A DNA stretch of 64,000 bases from Methylobacterium organophilum (GTDB taxonomy: Bacteria > Pseudomonadota > Alphaproteobacteria > Rhizobiales > Beijerinckiaceae), in contig NZ_BPQV01000008.1 of assembly GCF_022179465.1 (NCBI RefSeq), forward strand, positions 124,001 through 188,000, given 5' to 3'. The translations under genes were made by a program, and so were the position numbers. Numbering within the stretch: position 1 is the stretch's first letter; every line of letters begins with the position of its first letter. The notes under the pieces were generated by a model. That model was not told the DNA's origin, made no database searches, and was given only the letters and a program-made list of their open reading frames with translations. Of this stretch, positions 6,005 to 17,699 are shown one piece after another.

Positions 6005-6463
6005 TCAGCCGCGCGGGATGCGGCCGACCGAGCAGAGCGTGCGCAGAGCCCCGGCGCTGTCGGTGTAGCAGCTCGCCGACCAGCCGTTCTGCTGGATGAA
6101 GGACTTGCGGCGCTCGGCCAGCGCCGTCTCGTAGGCCTTGACCAGGGCCGCCTGCACGGCGGCCGCGGGCTCGCCGACCACGAGCTCCCCGGCGATGGTC
6201 AGCTCGCGGAAGAACTCGGCCGAGGGCGCCGGATCGCCGGAGGAGGCCTGCACGATCGGCTCGGCCCGGCAGGTCAGGTCGAGCCTGACCCCGCTCGCGG
6301 CCCGCACGTCGATGCTCGGGCCGACCCTTTTGCCGACCTTGCGCGCCCCCGTCGCCGCGGCGATCCGCTGGGCGAGCCCGTCGCATTCGTCGGCGCGCGC
6401 GGCCGGGGCGAGGGCCGAAACGGCGCAGAGAAGGCAGAGCAGGGCGAGGACGGGGCGCGACAT
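6005..6463 (-). CDS. Small exported protein of unknown function
   Basis: A 152-residue protein with a clear Sec signal peptide: a short start, then [20 protein letters not shown] with cleavage after the alanine-rich end. The mature part has three cysteines (ADECDGL, LTCRAE, ASCYTD) plus one in TLCSVGRIP, so two disulfides in the periplasm are possible. I recognise no family. It lies 42 bases upstream of matB on the same strand and may be co-transcribed with it. It is divergent from the collagen-like gene, sharing the 6464-6617 interval. Confidence 0.75.
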
Positions 6464-6617
6464 GGCGGCACATTTACTCCCGCTTCGTGCGAAGTCGAGC
6501 GGATGTGCGGGGGCGCGGCTCGGCCGGCCGGCCGGGCTTGACCCTGGCGCAAGCGGGACCACAAGGTCCGGCCCGCCGCGCCGACAGCCCCGACGGCGCC
6601 CCGGAGGAGACGAGCGG

Positions 6618-7424
6618 ATGCGTGCCAGGACGGCCACCAGGATCGTAGCGGTGATGGTCGGCGCCCTCTCCCTCGCGCTTCCCGCAAGCGGCGCTTCCGC
6701 CCAGACGCCGGCCGCGCAGACGTCTGTCGCCGAGGCCCCGCAGCCGAGCCCAGCCGCCTCCGCGAAGCCGGCCCGGCGGCGGCCGCAGACGCCGGCCCAG
6801 CCCATCATGGTCTACGACGCCCGCATCGAGGCGGGGGACCTGCGCATCTCCGGCAGCGTGCGCAAGGGCGGGATCGTGGTGGTGCTCGACGAGGACATCT
6901 CGGTCATGGCCGACAGCCGCGGCCGCTTCCTGTTCAAGCTGCCCTACCGGCCCGCGACCTGCGTCGCCACGCTGAAGGCGGAGGAGGACGAGCGCGAGGC
7001 CGTGATCGCCAATTGCGCCCCGGAAGGCCAGGCCGGGCCGAAGGGCGAGCCGGGGCCGACCGGCCCGCAGGGCCTGCCCGGCGAGAAGGGACCGCAGGGC
7101 GAGGCCGGACCGGCCGGCGCCCCGGGACCGGCCGGTCCGCCCGGCCCCGCGGGTGAGGCGGGGCCGAAGGGCGAACCGGGCACGAAGGGCGAGCCGGGAC
7201 CGGCCGGGGAGAAGGCGGAGGCGCCCCCCGCCGCGACGCTCCTGCGCGTCCTGCGCAAGGAGAGCTGCTCCCAGGGCGGCTGCGAGGTCACCTGCGAGAG
7301 CGGCGAGATCCTCGCCTCAGCCCATTGCCTGCGGAGCGGCAGCCCGGTCTTCGGCGAGGGCGGCGCCGGCGCGCGCTGCCCCGGCGACAGCGCCGGCATG
7401 GTCGGGATCTGCACGAAGCCCTGA
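6618..7424 (+). CDS. Secreted collagen-like repeat protein
   Basis: A 268-residue exported protein. A signal peptide ([20 protein letters not shown]) is followed by a Pro/Ala/Gln linker. Residues about 65-135 form a compact region ([30 protein letters not shown]). Then come 21 uninterrupted Gly-X-Y triplets at residues 137-199 (for example [18 protein letters not shown]). A cysteine-rich C-terminal domain with six cysteines, including [15 protein letters not shown], closes the protein and could act as a trimerisation or adhesion cap. The ATG at 6618 has GGAGG eight to nine bases upstream. Bacterial collagen-like proteins usually form triple helices at the cell surface; the role here is unknown. 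Confidence 0.85.
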
Positions 7425-10040: not shown

Positions 10041-11786
10041 TCAGCGCGCGGGCGCGACCCGGCCGTAGGCGACGGGTGCCGCTCCGCGCGCGCCCTCGCT
10101 CGACGGGAGCGGGGCGGCCGCGAGATCCCGCAGCAGGCCGCTCACCACGCCGTAGAGCGTCTCCTGGGCGGCGCGCGTGCTGAGGTCGTGATCGGCCTCC
10201 GGGATCACGGTGACGGGGCGGCCGAGGCGGGCATCCGCCTGCCGGCCGAGCTGCAGGGCGAGGTCCGCCAGCCCCACGTCGCCCTGGCTGTAGACGAGCT
10301 GGATCAGGCTGCCCCGCCGCCGGATGGCCGCCACGCGCCGCTTCACCGAGCCGCCGGGCGGCGGATTCACGAGCGGGGCGATGCGCCGCTGCACGGCTTC
10401 GAACCCGCGCCGGGCAAGGGAGGCGAGGATCGGCCCCACGCGCACCTCGCCGCGCACCAGCCGCTTCCAGGCCGCGCCCTGCTTCAGCATGGCGGCATAG
10501 GTGCCGGTGCTGCGGTAGACATTCCGCATCGCGACCTCGATGTCCTGGGTCTTGTCCCAGTCGAAGCGCTGCAGGTTGACGAGGATCGCCGCCGCGATCC
10601 GCGGATCCCGGCAGGTCGCATGGAAGCCGAGATTGGCGCCGCTGCAGGCCCCGAAGATCACCGCCGGCCGGCCGAGATGGTCGAGGGCGGCCGTCACGTC
10701 GTCCAGGGTCTCGTCGGCATAGATCGGGAAGATGCCGCTGGCGCGCGGGGCGCTGTCGCCGATGCCGCCGAGATCCATCCGCAGGGAGGCGACGCCGATT
10801 CCGGCGAGGCGCCGGGCGAGGCGCGTCGTCGAGCGGCCCCAGCCGGAATGGACGTTGGTGCCGGCATTCACGAACAGCACCACCGGCGCCCGCGGCAGGG
10901 GCGTCTCGGGCGCGCAGGCGAGGCCGAACAGCCCCGGCCCGAACCGCGCCGGCCGCTCGGACCAGCCGGGGCCGGCCAGGACGGCCTCGCGGGCCGGCGC
11001 AGCCGGGCGCAGGCGCGGCGCGGCGCCCTCCGACAGGAAGGCGGCCACCGCGGCGAAGGCCGCTTCCGGCACCTTGGCGTAGAGGGGGTTCGAGACGAGG
11101 TCGGGCAGCTCGGGGAAGGGGCGTGTCTCGACCTGCGCGCCGAGGGCGGCCAAGCGCTTCGGCAGGGCGCCCCCCTCACCCCCGAGCAGCAGGATGCGCG
11201 GCGCGGGCGCCCGAGTCAGCTTGGCGAGGTCGAGGCCGCCGAGATCCTCCGAGAGCGCCGGGCCGATGCGGAAAGCCGCGACGGTGAGGCCCTCCGGCTC
11301 CTGCGGCAGGGGCGTACCGTCCGGCAGGACGCCGGTGGTGCGCGACAGGATCTTCATCTCCCGCAGGAAGGTGCGGCCGGCGGCAAAGGGCGCGATCAGG
11401 ACGAGGCGATCGACCCCGCCCGTTTCCGCCGCCACCTGCGCCGCGAGCGTGCCGCCCAGGCGCAGGCCGACGAGGGCGATCTCCTCGATGCCCGGATCCG
11501 CCCGCAGGAAGCGGATCGCCGCGCGGATCGCGCCGAGGGCATCCTCCAGCCGCTCCACGGCGACGTCGCCGGAATCGCCCTGGCCGGGATAGTCGAAGCG
11601 CAGGACCGTGCAGCCCGTGCCGGCGATCCGCTCGGCGAGCGCCCGCCAGCCGCGATGGGCCGAGAGCTGCTCGTAGCCGTGCGTCCCGCACAGGATCACG
11701 CCGCGCCCGGTGCGGCCCGGGCTGTGCCAGCCGAACAGCCCCTCGAAGGCGACGGGCTGGGCGGGCACGGTTTCCGTCTCAGGCAT
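10041..11786 (-). CDS. Tandem alpha/beta-hydrolase, last gene of the aminoacyl carrier-protein operon
   Basis: A 581-residue protein made of two alpha/beta-hydrolase domains. Domain 1 (about 1-250) keeps the fold (ILCGTHGYE, RFDYPGQGDSGD), but its nucleophile elbow reads GLRLGG, with Arg109 where serine is expected. No catalytic HD near its end is apparent. Domain 2 (about 285-575) has the elbow FGACSGANLG with Cys381 in the nucleophile position, plus candidate Asp503 (SQGDVG) and His533 (EADHDLS). The start is the ATG at 11786, with GGAGGCGAGG just upstream, overlapping the GH2 gene by 8 bases. It could be a thioesterase, acyltransferase or peptidase acting on the carrier-bound product; that is inference. 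Confidence 0.8.
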   Translation of the reverse strand: MPETETVPAQPVAFEGLFGWHSPGRTGRGVILCGTHGYEQLSAHRGWRALAERIAGTGCTVLRFDYPGQGDSGDVAVERLEDALGAIRAAIRFLRADPGIEEIALVGLRLGGTLAAQVAAETGGVDRLVLIAPFAAGRTFLREMKILSRTTGVLPDGTPLPQEPEGLTVAAFRIGPALSEDLGGLDLAKLTRAPAPRILLLGGEGGALPKRLAALGAQVETRPFPELPDLVSNPLYAKVPEAAFAAVAAFLSEGAAPRLRPAAPAREAVLAGPGWSERPARFGPGLFGLACAPETPLPRAPVVLFVNAGTNVHSGWGRSTTRLARRLAGIGVASLRMDLGGIGDSAPRASGIFPIYADETLDDVTAALDHLGRPAVIFGACSGANLGFHATCRDPRIAAAILVNLQRFDWDKTQDIEVAMRNVYRSTGTYAAMLKQGAAWKRLVRGEVRVGPILASLARRGFEAVQRRIAPLVNPPPGGSVKRRVAAIRRRGSLIQLVYSQGDVGLADLALQLGRQADARLGRPVTVIPEADHDLSTRAAQETLYGVVSGLLRDLAAAPLPSSEGARGAAPVAYGRVAPAR

Positions 11787-14256
11787 CCTCGCCTCCGAAG
11801 CTGCAAGTTTCCAGGGCATTCAGCGCGACGACCCGGCCGCGCGGCGCCGTTTCCGGCCGGCCGAGAAGCGGGATCGTCCGCGTCCGGCCCGGCGCCAGGT
11901 GAAAGTGGTTGTCCTCGGGCCGCGAGGCGGCGGTCGCCCCGTCGAGGTCGATGGCCACGCCGAAAGCGTGCCGCCCGGCGGCGATTTCCAGCGCCCAGCC
12001 CGCACCGTCGCGGATCAGCCGGGCGGAAAGGCCAGTCTCGCCCGGCGCGACATCGCGGCCGAGGGGATGGTGGAAGGCCTCGGCCAGCACCGCACCGGTG
12101 GCCGCGTCGCAGAGTTCGGCATGGCCGAGCGCATGGGCCGGGGCACCGAAGCGATAGGCGTCGGTGACGTCGAAGAAGCGCCCGAGCAGGGCGGCGGAGG
12201 TGAATCGCTGCCCGCTGCGCGGTGCGACGGTCAGCGCCCGTTCCGCGGCGGCGACGGCCTTGCCCTTCGCGTCGGTGAAGGCGAGACGCAGGACGAGATC
12301 CCGGGGCCGCGGCGTCTCGTTGTGGACATGGACATGCAGGCCGTTCAGGCCCTCGTCGGTCAGGCAGATCTGGACCGGGCTGAAGGCGCGGCGCAGCGCG
12401 TACCAAGCGGCTTTCGGGGCACCCTCGTGGTCGATCGCGCCCCAGCCCGCGCCGGGGGCGAGATCCTTCAGCAGCCAGACGAGGCCGCCGGCCGTGGGCG
12501 AGGCCGCCCGCCGCCACTCGGCGAAGGTCGCCTCGATCACCTCCACCGCCGCCGCGCGGCCCAGCGCGAGGTAGCGCTCCGGCGCCTCGCGGCGCAGGCG
12601 GCCCGGATCGGCCCCGAAGAGCAGGCCGACATAATGGTCGCGCACGCCCTCGAAATCCCAGTCGGCGCCGCGGTCGCGGGGCACGCCCGCCGCCCAGCGC
12701 GGATCCTCGGGGTCGGTCAGCCCGGCGCGGGCGAGACTCGCCGGCTCCGGCACATGAGCGAAGGCGAGGCATTCGGTGGCGAAGCGCACACCGGCGCGGC
12801 GCGCATCCTCCAGGGGGCGCAGATAGGCGCCGACGCCGTAGTAATGCGCCACCCCCGCCTCGGCCGCGAACGGCACGTCGCCGCCCGACGGCGAGTTCGG
12901 CACGCTGGCGAGATCCGGCCGCGACGCGGCGACGAGACCGGGCAGGCTCTCCTCGACGAAGCCACCGGACCACGCCTCGCGCGGGAAGCCGAGCATCGCC
13001 GCCTGCTGCCAGACCTCGCTGCCCCCGCCCACCACGCAGAGGGAGGGCGACATCTGCGTGCGGTCGAGAAGCTGCACCACCTCGCGGGTGAGCTGGTCGC
13101 GGAAGGCGGGATCGTCGGTCGGGTAGTCGAAATTCGCGAGCATCAGGTCCTGCCAGACCAGGATGCCGAGGGCGTCGCAGAGATCGTGGAAGGCCGCCGC
13201 CTCGTAGAGCATGGTGCCGCCGACCCGCAGCATGTTCATGCCGGCGGCGCGGACGAGGTCGAGAACCGGGCGATAGGCCGCCTCCGTGCCGGACAGGCCG
13301 ACGAGATCCGGCGGCGTCCAGCAGGCGCCGCGGCAGAACACCGGCACGCCGTTGATGCGCAGGGCGAAGCCGTCGCCGGTGCGGTCGATGACGAGGCGGC
13401 GGAAGCCGGTGCGGCCGAGATCGATCCGCACCCCGCCGATCTCCGCCTCGACGGCGTGGAGGACGGGCTCGCCATGGGTATGCGGCCACCAGGCCGCGAC
13501 GCCCGGCAGCGCCAGGTCGGCCTCGTAGAGCCCGGGGGCGACCGCCCGCAGCGGCGCCGCGTGCCCGGCACAGCGCAGGAGAGCGGGGCCGGACGCGTTC
13601 GCCACGGCGAGGCGCAGGCTCAGGCGCCCCGTCTCCCCGTCGAGATCGCTGCGCAGATCCGCCGAGAGGACGCGCGGGCCTCGGTCGGAAAGCGCTTCGA
13701 GGGTGACGGGCCGGTAGGGGCCGACCGCGTCGACCGAGGGGCACCAGCCCGGCATGAAGCCGAGCAGGCTGGTGCGGACATGGCGCAGGGAGCCGGGGGT
13801 GGCGAGCCGCGGGCGCCAGCGGCCGCGCTTGTGCGGCTTGGCGAGTTCGACGGAAAGCGCGCGGAAGCGGATCGCGAGGGTGTTGTCGCCGGCGAGATCC
13901 ACCTCGACCGCGTGGGCGAGGAACATCGAGCGGCTCGACAGCACGAGCACGCCGTTCAGCCAGACCTCGGCCAGGGTGGCGAGACCCTCGAAGCGCAGGC
14001 AGGCGCGGCCGCTGCCCGCGAAGCGGGTCCGGTACCAGATGTCGGATTCGTGCAGCGGCGTCGGCGCGGCCGCGGACCAGAGCCCGGCGGCCTTCAGCGC
14101 CGCGGCGGCGGTGCCGGGCACGAGGGCCGGGATCCAGCCCTCCCGGCCAGCGAGATCGCCGGGGCCGGGGCAGGCCTCCGGCGCGGTCAGCAGCAATTCC
14201 CACGGGCCGCTGAGCGGCTCGGGCGCCCGGCCGTCCACCGAGAGGACACGGGCCAT
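11779..14256 (-). CDS. Glycoside hydrolase family 2 (beta-mannosidase-like)
   Basis: An 825-residue GH2-type enzyme. Residues 1-190 form the jelly-roll sugar-binding domain (LSGPWELLLT, HESDIWYRTRF, RFEGLATLAEVWLNG). An immunoglobulin-like domain follows (to about 290), then the TIM barrel starting near RINGVPVFCRGACWTPPD. The acid/base glutamate is Glu414 in VVGGGSEVWQQ and the nucleophile is Glu495 in RFATECLAF, so both catalytic residues are present. There is no signal peptide, so it should act in the cytosol, unlike most polymer-degrading GH2 enzymes. It sits 12 bases after the DUF1839 gene and overlaps the hydrolase gene, implying a role with the carrier-protein enzymes. The exact sugar is unknown. 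Confidence 0.85.
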   Translation of the reverse strand: MARVLSVDGRAPEPLSGPWELLLTAPEACPGPGDLAGREGWIPALVPGTAAAALKAAGLWSAAAPTPLHESDIWYRTRFAGSGRACLRFEGLATLAEVWLNGVLVLSSRSMFLAHAVEVDLAGDNTLAIRFRALSVELAKPHKRGRWRPRLATPGSLRHVRTSLLGFMPGWCPSVDAVGPYRPVTLEALSDRGPRVLSADLRSDLDGETGRLSLRLAVANASGPALLRCAGHAAPLRAVAPGLYEADLALPGVAAWWPHTHGEPVLHAVEAEIGGVRIDLGRTGFRRLVIDRTGDGFALRINGVPVFCRGACWTPPDLVGLSGTEAAYRPVLDLVRAAGMNMLRVGGTMLYEAAAFHDLCDALGILVWQDLMLANFDYPTDDPAFRDQLTREVVQLLDRTQMSPSLCVVGGGSEVWQQAAMLGFPREAWSGGFVEESLPGLVAASRPDLASVPNSPSGGDVPFAAEAGVAHYYGVGAYLRPLEDARRAGVRFATECLAFAHVPEPASLARAGLTDPEDPRWAAGVPRDRGADWDFEGVRDHYVGLLFGADPGRLRREAPERYLALGRAAAVEVIEATFAEWRRAASPTAGGLVWLLKDLAPGAGWGAIDHEGAPKAAWYALRRAFSPVQICLTDEGLNGLHVHVHNETPRPRDLVLRLAFTDAKGKAVAAAERALTVAPRSGQRFTSAALLGRFFDVTDAYRFGAPAHALGHAELCDAATGAVLAEAFHHPLGRDVAPGETGLSARLIRDGAGWALEIAAGRHAFGVAIDLDGATAASRPEDNHFHLAPGRTRTIPLLGRPETAPRGRVVALNALETCSFGGEDA

Positions 14257-14268
14257 GGCCTGTCCCGC

Positions 14269-15237
14269 TCAGTCCAGGCTGCGGTCGAGGGCGGCGAAGA
14301 CCGTCGCGTAGGCGGCCTCCGCCCGGTCGAGCCGGGTGGCGAGCCCCACCGCCCCACCGCGGGCGAAAGCGCGGGCAATCTGGAACTGGAAGGTCTTGGC
14401 CTCCTGCGCCAGAATCCGGCAGGCGGCGGAGGCCTCGCCGAAATCGCGGCCCGTCGCGGCCCCGAGCCAGTCGAGATGGCTGGCGAGGAGTTCGAAATTC
14501 GCTCCAAGCTGGCGCGTCGTGTTGAAGCCGTAGGCGTGGAACGCGCAGAGCGGCCGGCGCAGGAAGCCATCCTCCCAGGCGGCGACGCTGTCCCGGAAGG
14601 CGGCGATCGGGTTCGCCCGCGGCGCCTTGGCCCGGTGGGCCCGCAGCAATGCGAGGGCGACCTCGGGCAGCGCGGAAGCCGGGAGGGCGGAGCCGCTCGT
14701 CTTCACGAACTCGGCATAGGGGAACAGGAGCGCGGGGGCGAAGAGGCCCGCGTAATCCGCGCCCTCCAGCCGGTAGCGGCCGCCGTTGTGGAGATAGTCC
14801 AGGCGGCGGCCGGCCCGGTCGAGGCCGAGGATCGCGATCGTGGTCTTGTGGTGCTCGATGCCATAGGTCGTGCCGACGGTGTCGGGCAGGTGGAAGCCGT
14901 CGACCTCGACGAGGACCGGGTTGCCGCGGGCGACCTGCACGGCGGCCTGGCTCTCCAGGCTGTCGTAGATCGCGAGTTCCTGGATCTCCAGGCCGTAGAG
15001 CCGTTCGAGATCGGCGGCGAAGGGCTTGAAGAAGGTGAACTGGTCGCCTTCGAAGTCCTGGCGCAGGGTGAAGCCGAGCATCGCCTCCGGCACGAGGCCG
15101 CGGGCATGCAGGAGTTCGATCCAAAGATCGACGTAGCAGTTCGACTCCGGCCAGATGCGGTCGAAGGCGTGCAGGGGATGCGCGGCGTGGCCGGCCGGAG
15201 CCGCGGGCTCCGGCATCAGGGCGAGGGCGGCGGACAT
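14269..15237 (-). CDS. DUF1839 family protein
   Basis: A 322-residue soluble protein matching the DUF1839 family, as I recognise it from the conserved run FDRIWPESNCYVDLWIELLHA, LGFTLRQDFEGDQFTFFKP, GLEIQELAIYDSLESQ and HHKTTIAILGLD. It has a cysteine in ESNCYVDLW and a histidine pair in GIEHHKTT that could be functional, but no mechanism is established. In other Hyphomicrobiales this family is typically encoded next to amino acid:[carrier protein] ligases, as here. The chosen ATG at 15237 is five bases after the ligase stop; an ORF extension of 14 codons upstream would overlap the ligase. Confidence 0.85.
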   Translation of the reverse strand: MSAALALMPEPAAPAGHAAHPLHAFDRIWPESNCYVDLWIELLHARGLVPEAMLGFTLRQDFEGDQFTFFKPFAADLERLYGLEIQELAIYDSLESQAAVQVARGNPVLVEVDGFHLPDTVGTTYGIEHHKTTIAILGLDRAGRRLDYLHNGGRYRLEGADYAGLFAPALLFPYAEFVKTSGSALPASALPEVALALLRAHRAKAPRANPIAAFRDSVAAWEDGFLRRPLCAFHAYGFNTTRQLGANFELLASHLDWLGAATGRDFGEASAACRILAQEAKTFQFQIARAFARGGAVGLATRLDRAEAAYATVFAALDRSLD

Positions 15238-15242
15238 GCGCG

Positions 15243-16199
15243 TCAGCCCCAGAGCCGGGCGCGCACGGCCTCGGGCCATGCGGCGAGGTCGAGCCCGTGA
15301 TGGCGCAGGAGCGCCAGGGTGATCCGCTCCAGGCCGAAGCCGACGCAGGCCGTGTGGGCGACCGAACCATCGGCCTGCCGGATGCCCCAGACCTCGCCGA
15401 AATGGTCCTGATGGTAGTTGAAGGACAGGCAGGCGGTGGGCTTGTCCACGCTGTTGACCGGGACGTTCAGCTCGAACTTCAGGCCCTGGTCGCGCTGGTT
15501 GTTGGCGAGCATGCGCCCGGCCCGGCCGAAGAACGGATCGTTGGCGGGGTCGACGGCGAGGGGCAGGCCGAGCTCGCGCATCATGGCCGTACCGCGCTCC
15601 AGCCAGGTCTCGCGGAAGGCGATCACCTGCTCCGGCGTACCCATGCGGACGTATTCGCGCATGCGGAACATCTGCATGCGGGTCGGCTCCAGCGAGGGCT
15701 CGTGCCGGAAGCAGTAGGATTGCAGATCGAAGAGCAGGCCGTTCTCGGGCAGGTTCCCGCGGGCGGCGGCGACGGGGTAGAGCGGGTAGCAGGCCGCCGG
15801 GGTCAGCACGACCTCGCTCGCCGCCTGCTTGGCCGTCCAGTCGTCCCCGGCCTCGAGGCAGGCCAGGAGGCGGGCATGGTCCGCCTCGTTGCCGCAGAAG
15901 CAGTGCACGGTGCCGGCGAGGTGCGGGAAGCCCTTGAGGTAGCCGCTGCGCTCGAAGCTCGCCCGGCTCATGCCCGGGGGGAAGCGCATCGCCTCGGCGC
16001 CATCGGCGGCGCCGAGCTCGGTCGCGAGCCGGTCGATCGCCTCGACCACGCTCTCGAAGGCGCCGCTGCGGCCATAGAGGCCGTCGACGCCGGTGCGCAC
16101 GAGCAGGCCGTGATCGAACAGCCGGTCGAGGAAGCTGCGGGGCTCGGTCGCCTCGTCCGTCGCGAGGGCCGGGATCTCGAAGGAAGCAAGCTGGTCCAT
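15243..16199 (-). CDS. Amino acid:[carrier protein] ligase (truncated class II seryl-tRNA-synthetase homolog)
   Basis: A 318-residue enzyme predicted to activate an amino acid with ATP and load it onto the phosphopantetheine of a carrier protein instead of tRNA. It has a class II synthetase core only: motif-2-like [14 protein letters not shown] and motif-3 [16 protein letters not shown], with no tRNA-binding arm. Candidate zinc ligands are Cys137 ([10 protein letters not shown]), Glu182 (MREYVR) and Cys285 (HTACVG). Their spacing of 45 and 103 residues equals that I recall for the Bradyrhizobium glycine:CP ligase (C131/E176/C279). The ATG at 16199 overlaps the upstream TGA by one base (TGATG). 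Which amino acid it uses (Gly and Ala are known in the family) is not decidable here. Confidence 0.9.
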
Positions 16200-17362
16200 C
16201 ACGCGCTCAGGAGCTGGCCGCTGCCCTTCTGCACGAGCAGGAGGTTGGCGGTGTTGGAGAGGATGCGGTCGTTGCCGATCATCAGCGGCGCGGAGAGCAC
16301 GTCGCGGAGGGCCCGGCCCAGGCTGAAGGGGGTGCCGTTCTTGTAGCCGGACAGGCCGACGATCCCGAGCGCCCGCTGCACGACGTCGACCGCCGTGGCG
16401 GAGGCCGTGGTCTTGAGGTTGTTGAGCATCACCGAGAAGCCGATCGAGCCCAGCGCATCGGCATCGCCCTGCGCGTTCTCGAAGTGGCGCAGCGCCACGA
16501 CCACGCTGCCGCGCAGGGCCTGGAGGGCGTTGGAGGCCTCCGCGAGCCGCAGGGCGCCCGGGGGCACGTGGCCGGGCCGGCGCCGGGCCTCGCCCTGGAC
16601 ATAGGCCCGGGCCCGGTCGACCGCGAAGCTGGCGATGCCGTACCAGACGCTGCTCCAGAGGAGATGCGAGGCGGCGAGCATCGACTGCGCCGCGATCTCG
16701 GCGAAGGGCTTGGGCAGGATCTGGGCGACGGGCACGTCCCGGACGACCAGCTTGAAGCCGTCGCTGCAGGTGCCGCGCATGCCGAGCGTGTCCCAGCGGC
16801 TGGTCCGCTCCAGGGAGATCTGATCCCGCATCAGGGCGACGAGAACCTGGTCGGAGGTCGCCGCCTCGGGGTGCCGGCGAGCGGTCGCCAGGATGAGGTC
16901 GGCATGGGCGCCGTAGGAGATGACGGTCGCGTCCTTCTCCAGGGAGAAGACCTCGCCCGAGGTCACGACGGCGCAGAGGCTGTTGCGGAGGTCGCCGCCG
17001 ATGCCCCCCTCGGTGGTCGAGGAGGCGACGAGGAGCTGCCCGGCGGCGATGCGCTCCATCAGGCCGCGATGCCAGGCGCTGTCCAGGCCGTGGCTGACGA
17101 GGCTCGCGACCTTGATCTGGTGCATGGCGAAGACCATCGCCGCCGCCGTGCAGACCTGCCCGAGCAGGGTGCAGACATCGGCGATCTCGATCATCCCGGC
17201 GCCCTCGCCCCCGAGCTGGCGCGGGATCTGGATCCCGAGCAGGCGCTCCTCGCGCAGGGCGGCGACCGCCTCGGCCGGGAAACGTCCTTCCCGGTCGACA
17301 TCCTCGGCATGGAGCGCGGCGACGGCTGCGACGCGCCGGGCGCGGGCGACGAGCGTGCTCAT
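16199..17362 (-). CDS. Acyl-CoA dehydrogenase family flavoenzyme
   Basis: A 387-residue member of the acyl-CoA dehydrogenase fold. Visible elements are the N-terminal helical region ([20 protein letters not shown]), the FAD/substrate segment [15 protein letters not shown], the domain [17 protein letters not shown] and the C-terminal FAD-binding helix region [41 protein letters not shown]. The usual catalytic glutamate position is not clear to me. Encoded between a carrier protein and the ligase that loads it, with 4-base ATGA overlap to the carrier gene, it plausibly oxidises a carrier-bound aminoacyl or acyl group, as flavoenzymes do for prolyl carriers in other pathways. That is inference from context. 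Confidence 0.85.
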
Positions 17363-17613
17363 GCGGCTTCCGCCGATGTCAGCGAGGCGACGGTGTCGCG
17401 GATCGCCTTGAGGGTCGAGAACGACCGGCGGTTGAGGAGCGAATCGGGGAACTCGATCTCGAAGCGCTCCTCCAGGGCCAGCATGAGCTGGACCGAGCCG
17501 AAGGAGGTCAGGCCCTTCTCGAACAGGTCCGCGTCGGGGCCGAGCCCCTCGACCAGTCCGGCCATCGCCTCGAGGCTACCGACCACCTCGCGAATATCTT
17601 CGAGCGAAATCAT
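17359..17613 (-). CDS. Acyl/aminoacyl carrier protein
   Basis: An 84-residue four-helix carrier protein, first gene of the operon. The phosphopantetheine attachment serine is Ser37 in [19 protein letters not shown]. The usual DSL is replaced by TSF, as may be typical of carriers paired with amino acid:[carrier protein] ligases rather than fatty-acid synthase. The following [20 protein letters not shown] matches helix III of ACPs. The chosen ATG at 17613 has AAGAGG eight bases or so upstream; a GTG three codons earlier would overlap that site. An AT-rich upstream region with an operator-like palindrome lies just before it. Confidence 0.88.
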
Positions 17614-17699
17614 CCGGGCCACCTCTTATTTGGATGATTTCTTTTAAAATACCGCCTTTCTCAATTCAAATCAGATTACCGGCCTTGGTAAACAGGAGC

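Follow-up and report, generated by a model that had tools for sequence, protein, structure and literature searches.

Amino acid:[carrier protein] ligases (aa:CP ligases) form a family which puts glycine or alanine on a carrier protein (CP). A conserved neighbourhood of such a class-II aaRS-like ligase was described by Iyer et al. in 2010, in a note added in proofs which also put forward the idea of an aminoacyl-sugar (PMC2922099); as far as that note goes, it shares with our locus the ligase, an ACP, a redox enzyme, a conserved uncharacterised ORF and a glycosidase, and it names no tandem hydrolase, no transferase fold and no division into two locus types. This gene set is complete in the DNA analysed here and present in 66 of 80 other loci; the kind of operon has thus been known since 2010, and it is real and widespread. 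Atu2574, a gene of that neighbourhood, probably encodes a DUF1839 protein. A search of the literature, largely by title, which also covered unipolar-polysaccharide genes and aminoacylated polysaccharides, returned no experimental role for DUF1839, Atu2571-2576 or aa:CP ligases, and a 2022 review states that the biological role of amino acid attachment to CPs is still unknown (PMC9437257). Three other systems invite comparison. The lincosamide synthetase CcbD/LmbD works with a CP and an adenylation enzyme, CcbC/LmbC, whereas our operon has an aaRS-like ligase and no A-domain. In the Dlt system (DltA/DltC), a free CP likewise delivers an amino acid to a polymer of the cell envelope, but its ligase and transferase are unrelated to those of the operon, whose hosts, unlike those of Dlt, are Gram-negative. 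Lastly, exosortase A-associated hydrolases 1 and 2 (TIGR03100, TIGR03101) resemble the two halves of our tandem hydrolase (HYD), which are fused in one protein.

We analysed a stretch of 64,000 nucleotides from Methylobacterium organophilum (contig NZ_BPQV01000008.1, positions 124,001 to 188,000), hereafter called the window. A first-pass annotation had recognised in it six leftward genes, overlapping or at most 12 bases apart. The ORF list of the window has all six on the minus strand where that annotation had put them, and the family models agree with it (Table 1); position 17613, given there as the start of the CP gene, is an internal ATG (residue 4). The overlaps are of 4 bases between CP and flavoprotein and between flavoprotein and ligase, of 37 bases between ligase and DUF1839 and of 41 bases between GH2 and HYD (both with the longest start), while a gap of 12 bases separates DUF1839 from GH2. 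The gene queC lies about 200 bp upstream of the operon start on the same strand, and terC is convergent with the operon. A consensus scan gave no promoter-like and no terminator-like site, shuffled sequences giving 0.2 and 2.3 respectively.

Table 1. Genes of the operon in the window, in order of transcription
Product	Length (aa)	Positions	Strand	Remarks
Carrier protein (CP)	87	17359-17622	-	GTG start; phosphopantetheine Ser40
Acyl-CoA-dehydrogenase-fold flavoprotein	387	16199-17362	-	Without the usual catalytic Glu (I362)
Amino acid:[carrier protein] ligase	319	15243-16202	-	NF005479
DUF1839	336	14269-15279	-	PF08893; predicted CP-dependent aminoacyl transferase / amide synthase; Cys48, His164
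GH2, beta-mannosidase-like, cytosolic-looking	825	11779-14256	-	PF22666; Glu414, Glu495
Tandem alpha/beta-hydrolase (HYD)	592	10041-11819	-	N-domain R120, no nucleophile; C-domain Cys392/His544

A species-level genome scan returned 111 relatives of the ligase, the best 80 of which were taken as loci (24 of these belong to Caballeronia or Burkholderia). In 66 of these 80 other loci, five genes (CP, flavoprotein, ligase, DUF1839, GH2) follow one another in the same order and on one strand. Since the order of five genes is kept so often, the operon is more than a chance assembly, and we rejected the idea of a local accident. The hosts include Methylobacterium, other Hyphomicrobiales, Azospirillum, Acidisoma, Caballeronia, Pararobbsia and Paraburkholderia. 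Among the 14 non-colinear loci, the ligase of nine is close to the end of a contig; L028, L031, L061, L068 and L083 are truly without DUF1839 and GH2 beside the ligase, and L028, L031 and L068 miss the flavoprotein too. In three of the genomes of these five loci DUF1839 is found elsewhere; it was not found in the other two, G297 and G301, which are MAGs. HYD is no more than 300 bases from the operon in 28 loci of the 80, farther away in one, and absent from the stretch in 51.

The first-pass annotation had proposed to check the co-occurrence of the families across genomes of Hyphomicrobiales. Among 297 such genomes, the ligase is above its cut-off in 64 and DUF1839 is found in 49 (that of G210, in two overlapping pieces, being counted as present), each DUF1839 gene lying, as judged by eye, on the contig of the ligase within about 1.5 kb. 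A strong GH2 (at least 377 bits; the two-piece copies of G235 and G246 included) occurs in 48 genomes and HYD (E of at most 1e-40) in 50, counts for which only the best three or four candidates were scored in most genomes, so that divergent copies could be missed. One of the HYD matches, in G253, covers the N-half only, and the 49 genomes with a full-length HYD are exactly those with DUF1839. GH2 is missing from a single DUF1839 genome (G296), where DUF1839 is 327 bases from a contig end, and the GH2 matches in genomes without DUF1839 reach at most 161 bits, with about 25-35% identity. The co-occurrence has a Fisher P of 3e-57, a value which overstates independence, the species sampled in the 297 genomes being related. 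The absence of GH2 and the hydrolase from relatives would have refuted the first-pass reading; instead, 48 and 49 of the 49 DUF1839 genomes have GH2 and HYD respectively, which rejects both as mere passengers, although HYD is not always at the operon. Measured from DUF1839, HYD starts within 7 kb in 31 genomes of the 49, at 7-30 kb in six, and farther away or on another contig in 12; in one of these 12, G246, there is a contig break beside GH2, which leaves 11 unlinked genomes. Of 22 genomes chosen because their ligase stretch was without HYD or DUF1839 (one of them, G308, is the same genome as G255 of the 297), all 22 have HYD and 20 have DUF1839; HYD without a detected DUF1839 is seen in the two MAGs named above. 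The two genes also co-vary within genera: in the genus of the window six genomes were sampled, half of them (three) with both genes and three with neither, and in another genus (g100) only G203 of the six genomes seen has both. Hence, HYD is a steady partner of the DUF1839 operon. Neither this partnership nor the flippase fusion described below appears in the 2010 note (PMC2922099).

The ligase scores 519.9 bits against NF005479 (cut-off 357), which bears out the family named by the first-pass annotation. Its closest solved structure is aa:CP ligase 1 (4h2w, E 2e-103), followed by 3mey (Bll0957), and its residues 16-315 align with both, that is with a class II aaRS core devoid of a tRNA-binding domain. 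Residues C138, E183 and C286, which we take to be the zinc ligands, are conserved in at least 97% of 100 aligned sequences. The CP scores 86.1 bits against NF005480 (cut-off 72) and 34.3 bits against PF00550, keeps Ser40 in 92 of 92 aligned sequences, and falls below the cut-off of the DltC model (35.2 bits for 68). In these alignments and in those used below, short or interrupted rows were left out (ligase 1 of 100, CP 1 of 92, flavoprotein 3 of 96, DUF1839 6 of 82, GH2 3 of 78, HYD 3 of 36), the window sequence was then added, and the residue counts contain three loci twice (L166/L044, L167/L010 and L168/L009).

The flavoprotein (PF02771/PF00441) is above cut-off for the Acyl-CoA_dh_N and Acyl-CoA_dh_1 domains and below it for the middle domain. 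The Glu of 3pfd (in IYEGT), at the catalytic position of MCAD and SCAD, aligns with I362, a position occupied by I in 91 and by V in 3 of 94 sequences, the type B loci described below included. Position 232, presumably the site of the isovaleryl-CoA-dehydrogenase-type Glu (placed by hand), is S in 73, A in 14, T in 4 and C in 3 of the 94. As the usual Glu is replaced throughout, we rejected a canonical alpha,beta-dehydrogenase, and ordinary desaturation is unlikely; alpha,beta-desaturation would even be impossible if the ligase loads glycine, as its family does. In the PDB, the best sequence matches are acyl-CoA dehydrogenases, with the N-oxygenases KijD3, ORF36 and DnmZ close behind: these three are among the best solved matches, the dehydrogenases scoring as high or higher. 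A monooxygenation would be the favoured reaction, which is what Iyer et al. guessed for the redox enzyme in their note (PMC2922099). The first-pass annotation had a dehydrogenase oxidising the carrier-bound residue, which is unlikely as an ordinary desaturation.

DUF1839, which had been listed without a role, is confirmed by PF08893 (372.6 bits, cut-off 22.5), and its Cys48 and His164 are invariant in 77 of 77 sequences. In a fold search its structural model matches CP-dependent amide synthases of the CcbD type over most of its length. This makes it the likely transferase of the operon, and the transfer enzyme can now be predicted, from the model, to belong to a known class. Two facts speak against the assignment: searching with a profile built from 58 DUF1839 proteins, we saw no CcbD, CtaG or AziU3 chain at E up to 1, hence no match at the level of sequence, and the Cys-Thr/Ser-His arrangement of DUF1839 is reported to be permuted (PMC10318531), as opposed to the Cys-His-Glu triad of CcbD. 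The link with CcbD was not found in the paper naming DUF1839 that a search of mostly open-access literature returned. Separately, in one complete genome (L053:11397-12119; G309) DUF1839 is in two pieces, a possible frameshift.

The N-domain of GH2 scores 57.4 bits against PF22666 (cut-off 27), and the protein resembles beta-mannosidases (5n6u, E 3e-40). Glu414 and Glu495 are kept in 76 of 76 sequences: E495 aligns with a Glu of 5n6u, while E414 meets the acid/base position, a Cys in that structure, only after a one-residue gap is removed by hand. On inspection, the N-terminus has no obvious signal peptide.

HYD has two stretches each of PF12146 and PF00561, and its model consists of two hydrolase domains (pLDDT 87). 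Its C-half scores 111.5 bits against TIGR03100 (cut-off 168.45) and its N-half 67.2 bits against TIGR03101 (cut-off 202.75); with both halves below the curated cut-offs, we rejected a true exosortase A hydrolase. C392, D543 and H544 are present in 34 of 34 sequences. Position 120 of the N-domain is R in 27 and G in 7 of them, hence never Ser, Cys or Asp, and we rejected HYD as a pair of active serine esterases. The first-pass annotation had the hydrolase release or transfer the carrier-bound residue; only the C-domain has a nucleophile, a Cys.

We then fetched 20 stretches containing HYD, which cover the unlinked genomes as well as some further ones. In all 11 unlinked genomes, a WecG-type glycosyltransferase is found in the same stretch as at least one copy of HYD. 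The WecG probe is positive in 3 of 101 ligase-centred sequences, the sole background and an imperfect one, some of these being short contigs. Further polysaccharide genes (Wzz, Wzx, GH5 and GT4 matches in varying combinations) occur in L173, L178, L186 and L187. The order is GT1/4, Wzx, GH5, HYD in L164, and WecG, Wzx, HYD, GH5, GT4, then the CP operon in L169. In L163 (14872-18198, plus strand), HYD is the C-terminal part of a fusion of 1108 aa whose N-half is a Wzx-type flippase (PF13440); a GT4/GT1 glycosyltransferase gene adjoins it, and L162 has a relative of 1103 aa. On the other side, no polysaccharide probe is positive in the stretches of the copies L174, L177, L183 and L184 and of the nearby HYD of G203 (L188). 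Pfam annotation of 105 HYD neighbours (ORFs called by a simple GC3 rule and hand-picked, of 12 of the 20 stretches, chosen among those with probe matches) gave WecG 9, GT1 9, Wzz 7, Wzx 6, GH5 5, GINT1_N 4, Wzy_C 3 and polysaccharide deacetylase 3. For 117 operon neighbours, hand-picked among 295 ORFs called in the same way and coming from 31 of 34 loci, it gave GT1 8, Polysacc_synt 5, Wzz 5, GT2 4, histidine kinases 5 and solute-binding proteins 4, out of 172 families in total. Polysaccharide probes are positive in 27 of the 101 ligase-centred sequences, some of the matches being weak or at type B loci. In the genome of the window, a locus (L198) on contig C3, which is not that of the operon, combines WecG with genes for a polysaccharide deacetylase and a DUF6492 protein, a Wzz-like gene, a Wzy-like match and, below cut-off, a match to a flippase. 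Two further WecG genes lie elsewhere in this genome, and L198 is only a candidate for the target polysaccharide locus.

The ligase also occurs in another setting, which we call type B. The genome of the window contains a second ligase copy (L150, G000:C7:8001-28000; ligase at 10901-11833), accompanied by a relative of the flavoprotein and, on the opposite strand, by a CP gene, as well as by an Abhydrolase_3, an AMP-binding enzyme and, farther on, a GT2. Fifteen genomes have a ligase above cut-off without DUF1839, and all 11 of those fetched show ligase and flavoprotein relatives without DUF1839, GH2 or HYD. More generally, none of these three is near the ligase in the 12 type B loci fetched. 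In a ligase tree of 79 tips, from which most Caballeronia were omitted, a split with a support of 0.938 sets 12 tips, those of type B, apart from the other 67. Type B loci hence share CP, flavoprotein and ligase with the operon and form a separate ligase branch. L154, L160 and L161 share gene clusters in varying combinations; those of L154 comprise a class IV aminotransferase, a cupin, a TPP enzyme, an SDR, an AMP-binding enzyme and a weak GNAT match. Type B loci look like small-molecule clusters.

What, then, could the operon make? The aminoacyl unit joined to something glycosidic, as first proposed, is kept in our best reading, to which we give a little less than an even chance: a CP-dependent aminoacylation of a sugar feeding a cell-surface polysaccharide. 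The ligase, as is known of its family, would activate a small amino acid, Gly or Ala, and load it on the phosphopantetheine of the CP. The flavoprotein would oxidise or oxygenate the CP-bound aminoacyl group, an oxygenation, for instance at N, being likelier than a desaturation. Judging from fold and context, Cys48 of DUF1839 would take the acyl group and hand it to a sugar amine as CcbD does. On the cytosolic side, before a Wzx-type flippase comes into play, the Cys392 domain of HYD may act on the acyl group or on a sugar linked to a lipid or a nucleotide, and GH2 would trim or recycle a beta-linked, perhaps mannosyl, intermediate. The whole would resemble Dlt D-alanylation, transposed to Gram-negative bacteria and centred on a transferase of the lincosamide-synthetase type. 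The fold match of DUF1839 thus points to the likely transfer enzyme and its chemistry, the partnership with HYD and the place of HYD in polysaccharide loci to the likely destination, and both together turn the activity of aa:CP ligases into a testable pathway in harmless bacteria of plants and soil. If the reading is true, many Alpha- and Betaproteobacteria have surface polysaccharides which bear amino acids by way of a translation-derived enzyme. Against it, the operon of the window lies between queuosine genes and terC, outside any polysaccharide locus, L198 is on another contig, the probes are positive in only 27 of 101 sequences and five HYD copies are free of them, HYD occurs without a detected DUF1839 in two MAGs, and type B loci resemble small-molecule clusters. 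Nor does this reading explain why GH2 and HYD should both be required.

The main competitor, which we consider unlikely, is a diffusible small molecule, an aminoacyl glycoside of the lincosamide or mycothiol kind. It revives the first-pass idea of a small-molecule product with the roles reassigned: ligase and CP would provide the amino acid, DUF1839 would form an amide with an amino sugar, GH2 would remove a protecting sugar, and HYD would release or finish the product. The product of CcbD is itself a small molecule, GH2 seems to be cytosolic and retains its two catalytic Glu, and the type B sisters (L150 and L154 scanned) resemble natural-product clusters in having genes for an AMP-ligase, an SDR, a TPP-enzyme, an aminotransferase and an esterase. 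However, HYD unlinked from the operon shares stretches with WecG, Wzz and Wzx genes in 11 of 11 genomes, with one flippase fusion, which points to polysaccharide export and away from the small molecule. The polysaccharide reading can also be sharpened into a full counterpart of Dlt, in which the aaRS-derived ligase, the CP, the CcbD-like transferase and the flippase-coupled HYD put an N-oxygenated or oxidised aminoacyl group on a lipid-linked Wzx/Wzy repeat unit before export; so detailed a version is distinctly unlikely, and would imply a surface polymer carrying an aminoacyl or hydroxamate-like substituent.

The main transferase might instead be the Cys domain of HYD, on the model of the aminoacyl shuttles SyrC and CmaE, DUF1839 having a secondary function, for instance the hydrolysis or editing of misloaded CP. 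No SyrC- or CmaE-like shuttle is named among the 50 matches listed per HYD fold search, which carries no weight against the idea. Cys392 and His544 are indeed invariant, the C-domain aligns in a fold search with the thioesterase DcsB among many hydrolases, and HYD is the gene nearest to the polysaccharide genes. However, DUF1839 is the protein locked into the ligase operon and matched by CP-dependent amide synthases, and in 11 of 49 genomes HYD and the CP gene lie far apart; we regard this arrangement as improbable. Degradation or salvage, in which GH2 and HYD would break an acylated glycoside and the CP system handle the freed amino acid, fits two hydrolase-type genes whose active sites are kept; but an ATP-spending ligase with a CP is normally the entry to a biosynthesis, and no uptake or catabolic gene was seen as a constant companion (a weak argument, as many neighbour clusters are unannotated), so we regard salvage as very improbable. 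Least probable by our estimate is the use of aminoacyl-CP for a non-ribosomal peptide bond. CP-bound amino acids are indeed the currency of NRPS, and the original ligase paper, Mocibob et al. 2010 (cited in PMC9437257), suggests such a use by its title, but the six genes contain no condensation domain or NRPS module, the conserved partners include a glycosidase, HYD is tied to polysaccharide genes, and Iyer et al. argued against it (PMC2922099).

Two minor observations can be added. Genes of the hydantoinase A/B type recur beside the ligase in L028, L031, L033, L034 and L061 (scanned in L028, the same clusters being found in the others), whether the rest of the operon is present or absent. In the window, an ORF at 6138-7424 on the plus strand has collagen-like repeats (GPAGPPG, GPKGEPG) which follow an apparent internal start with a signal peptide.
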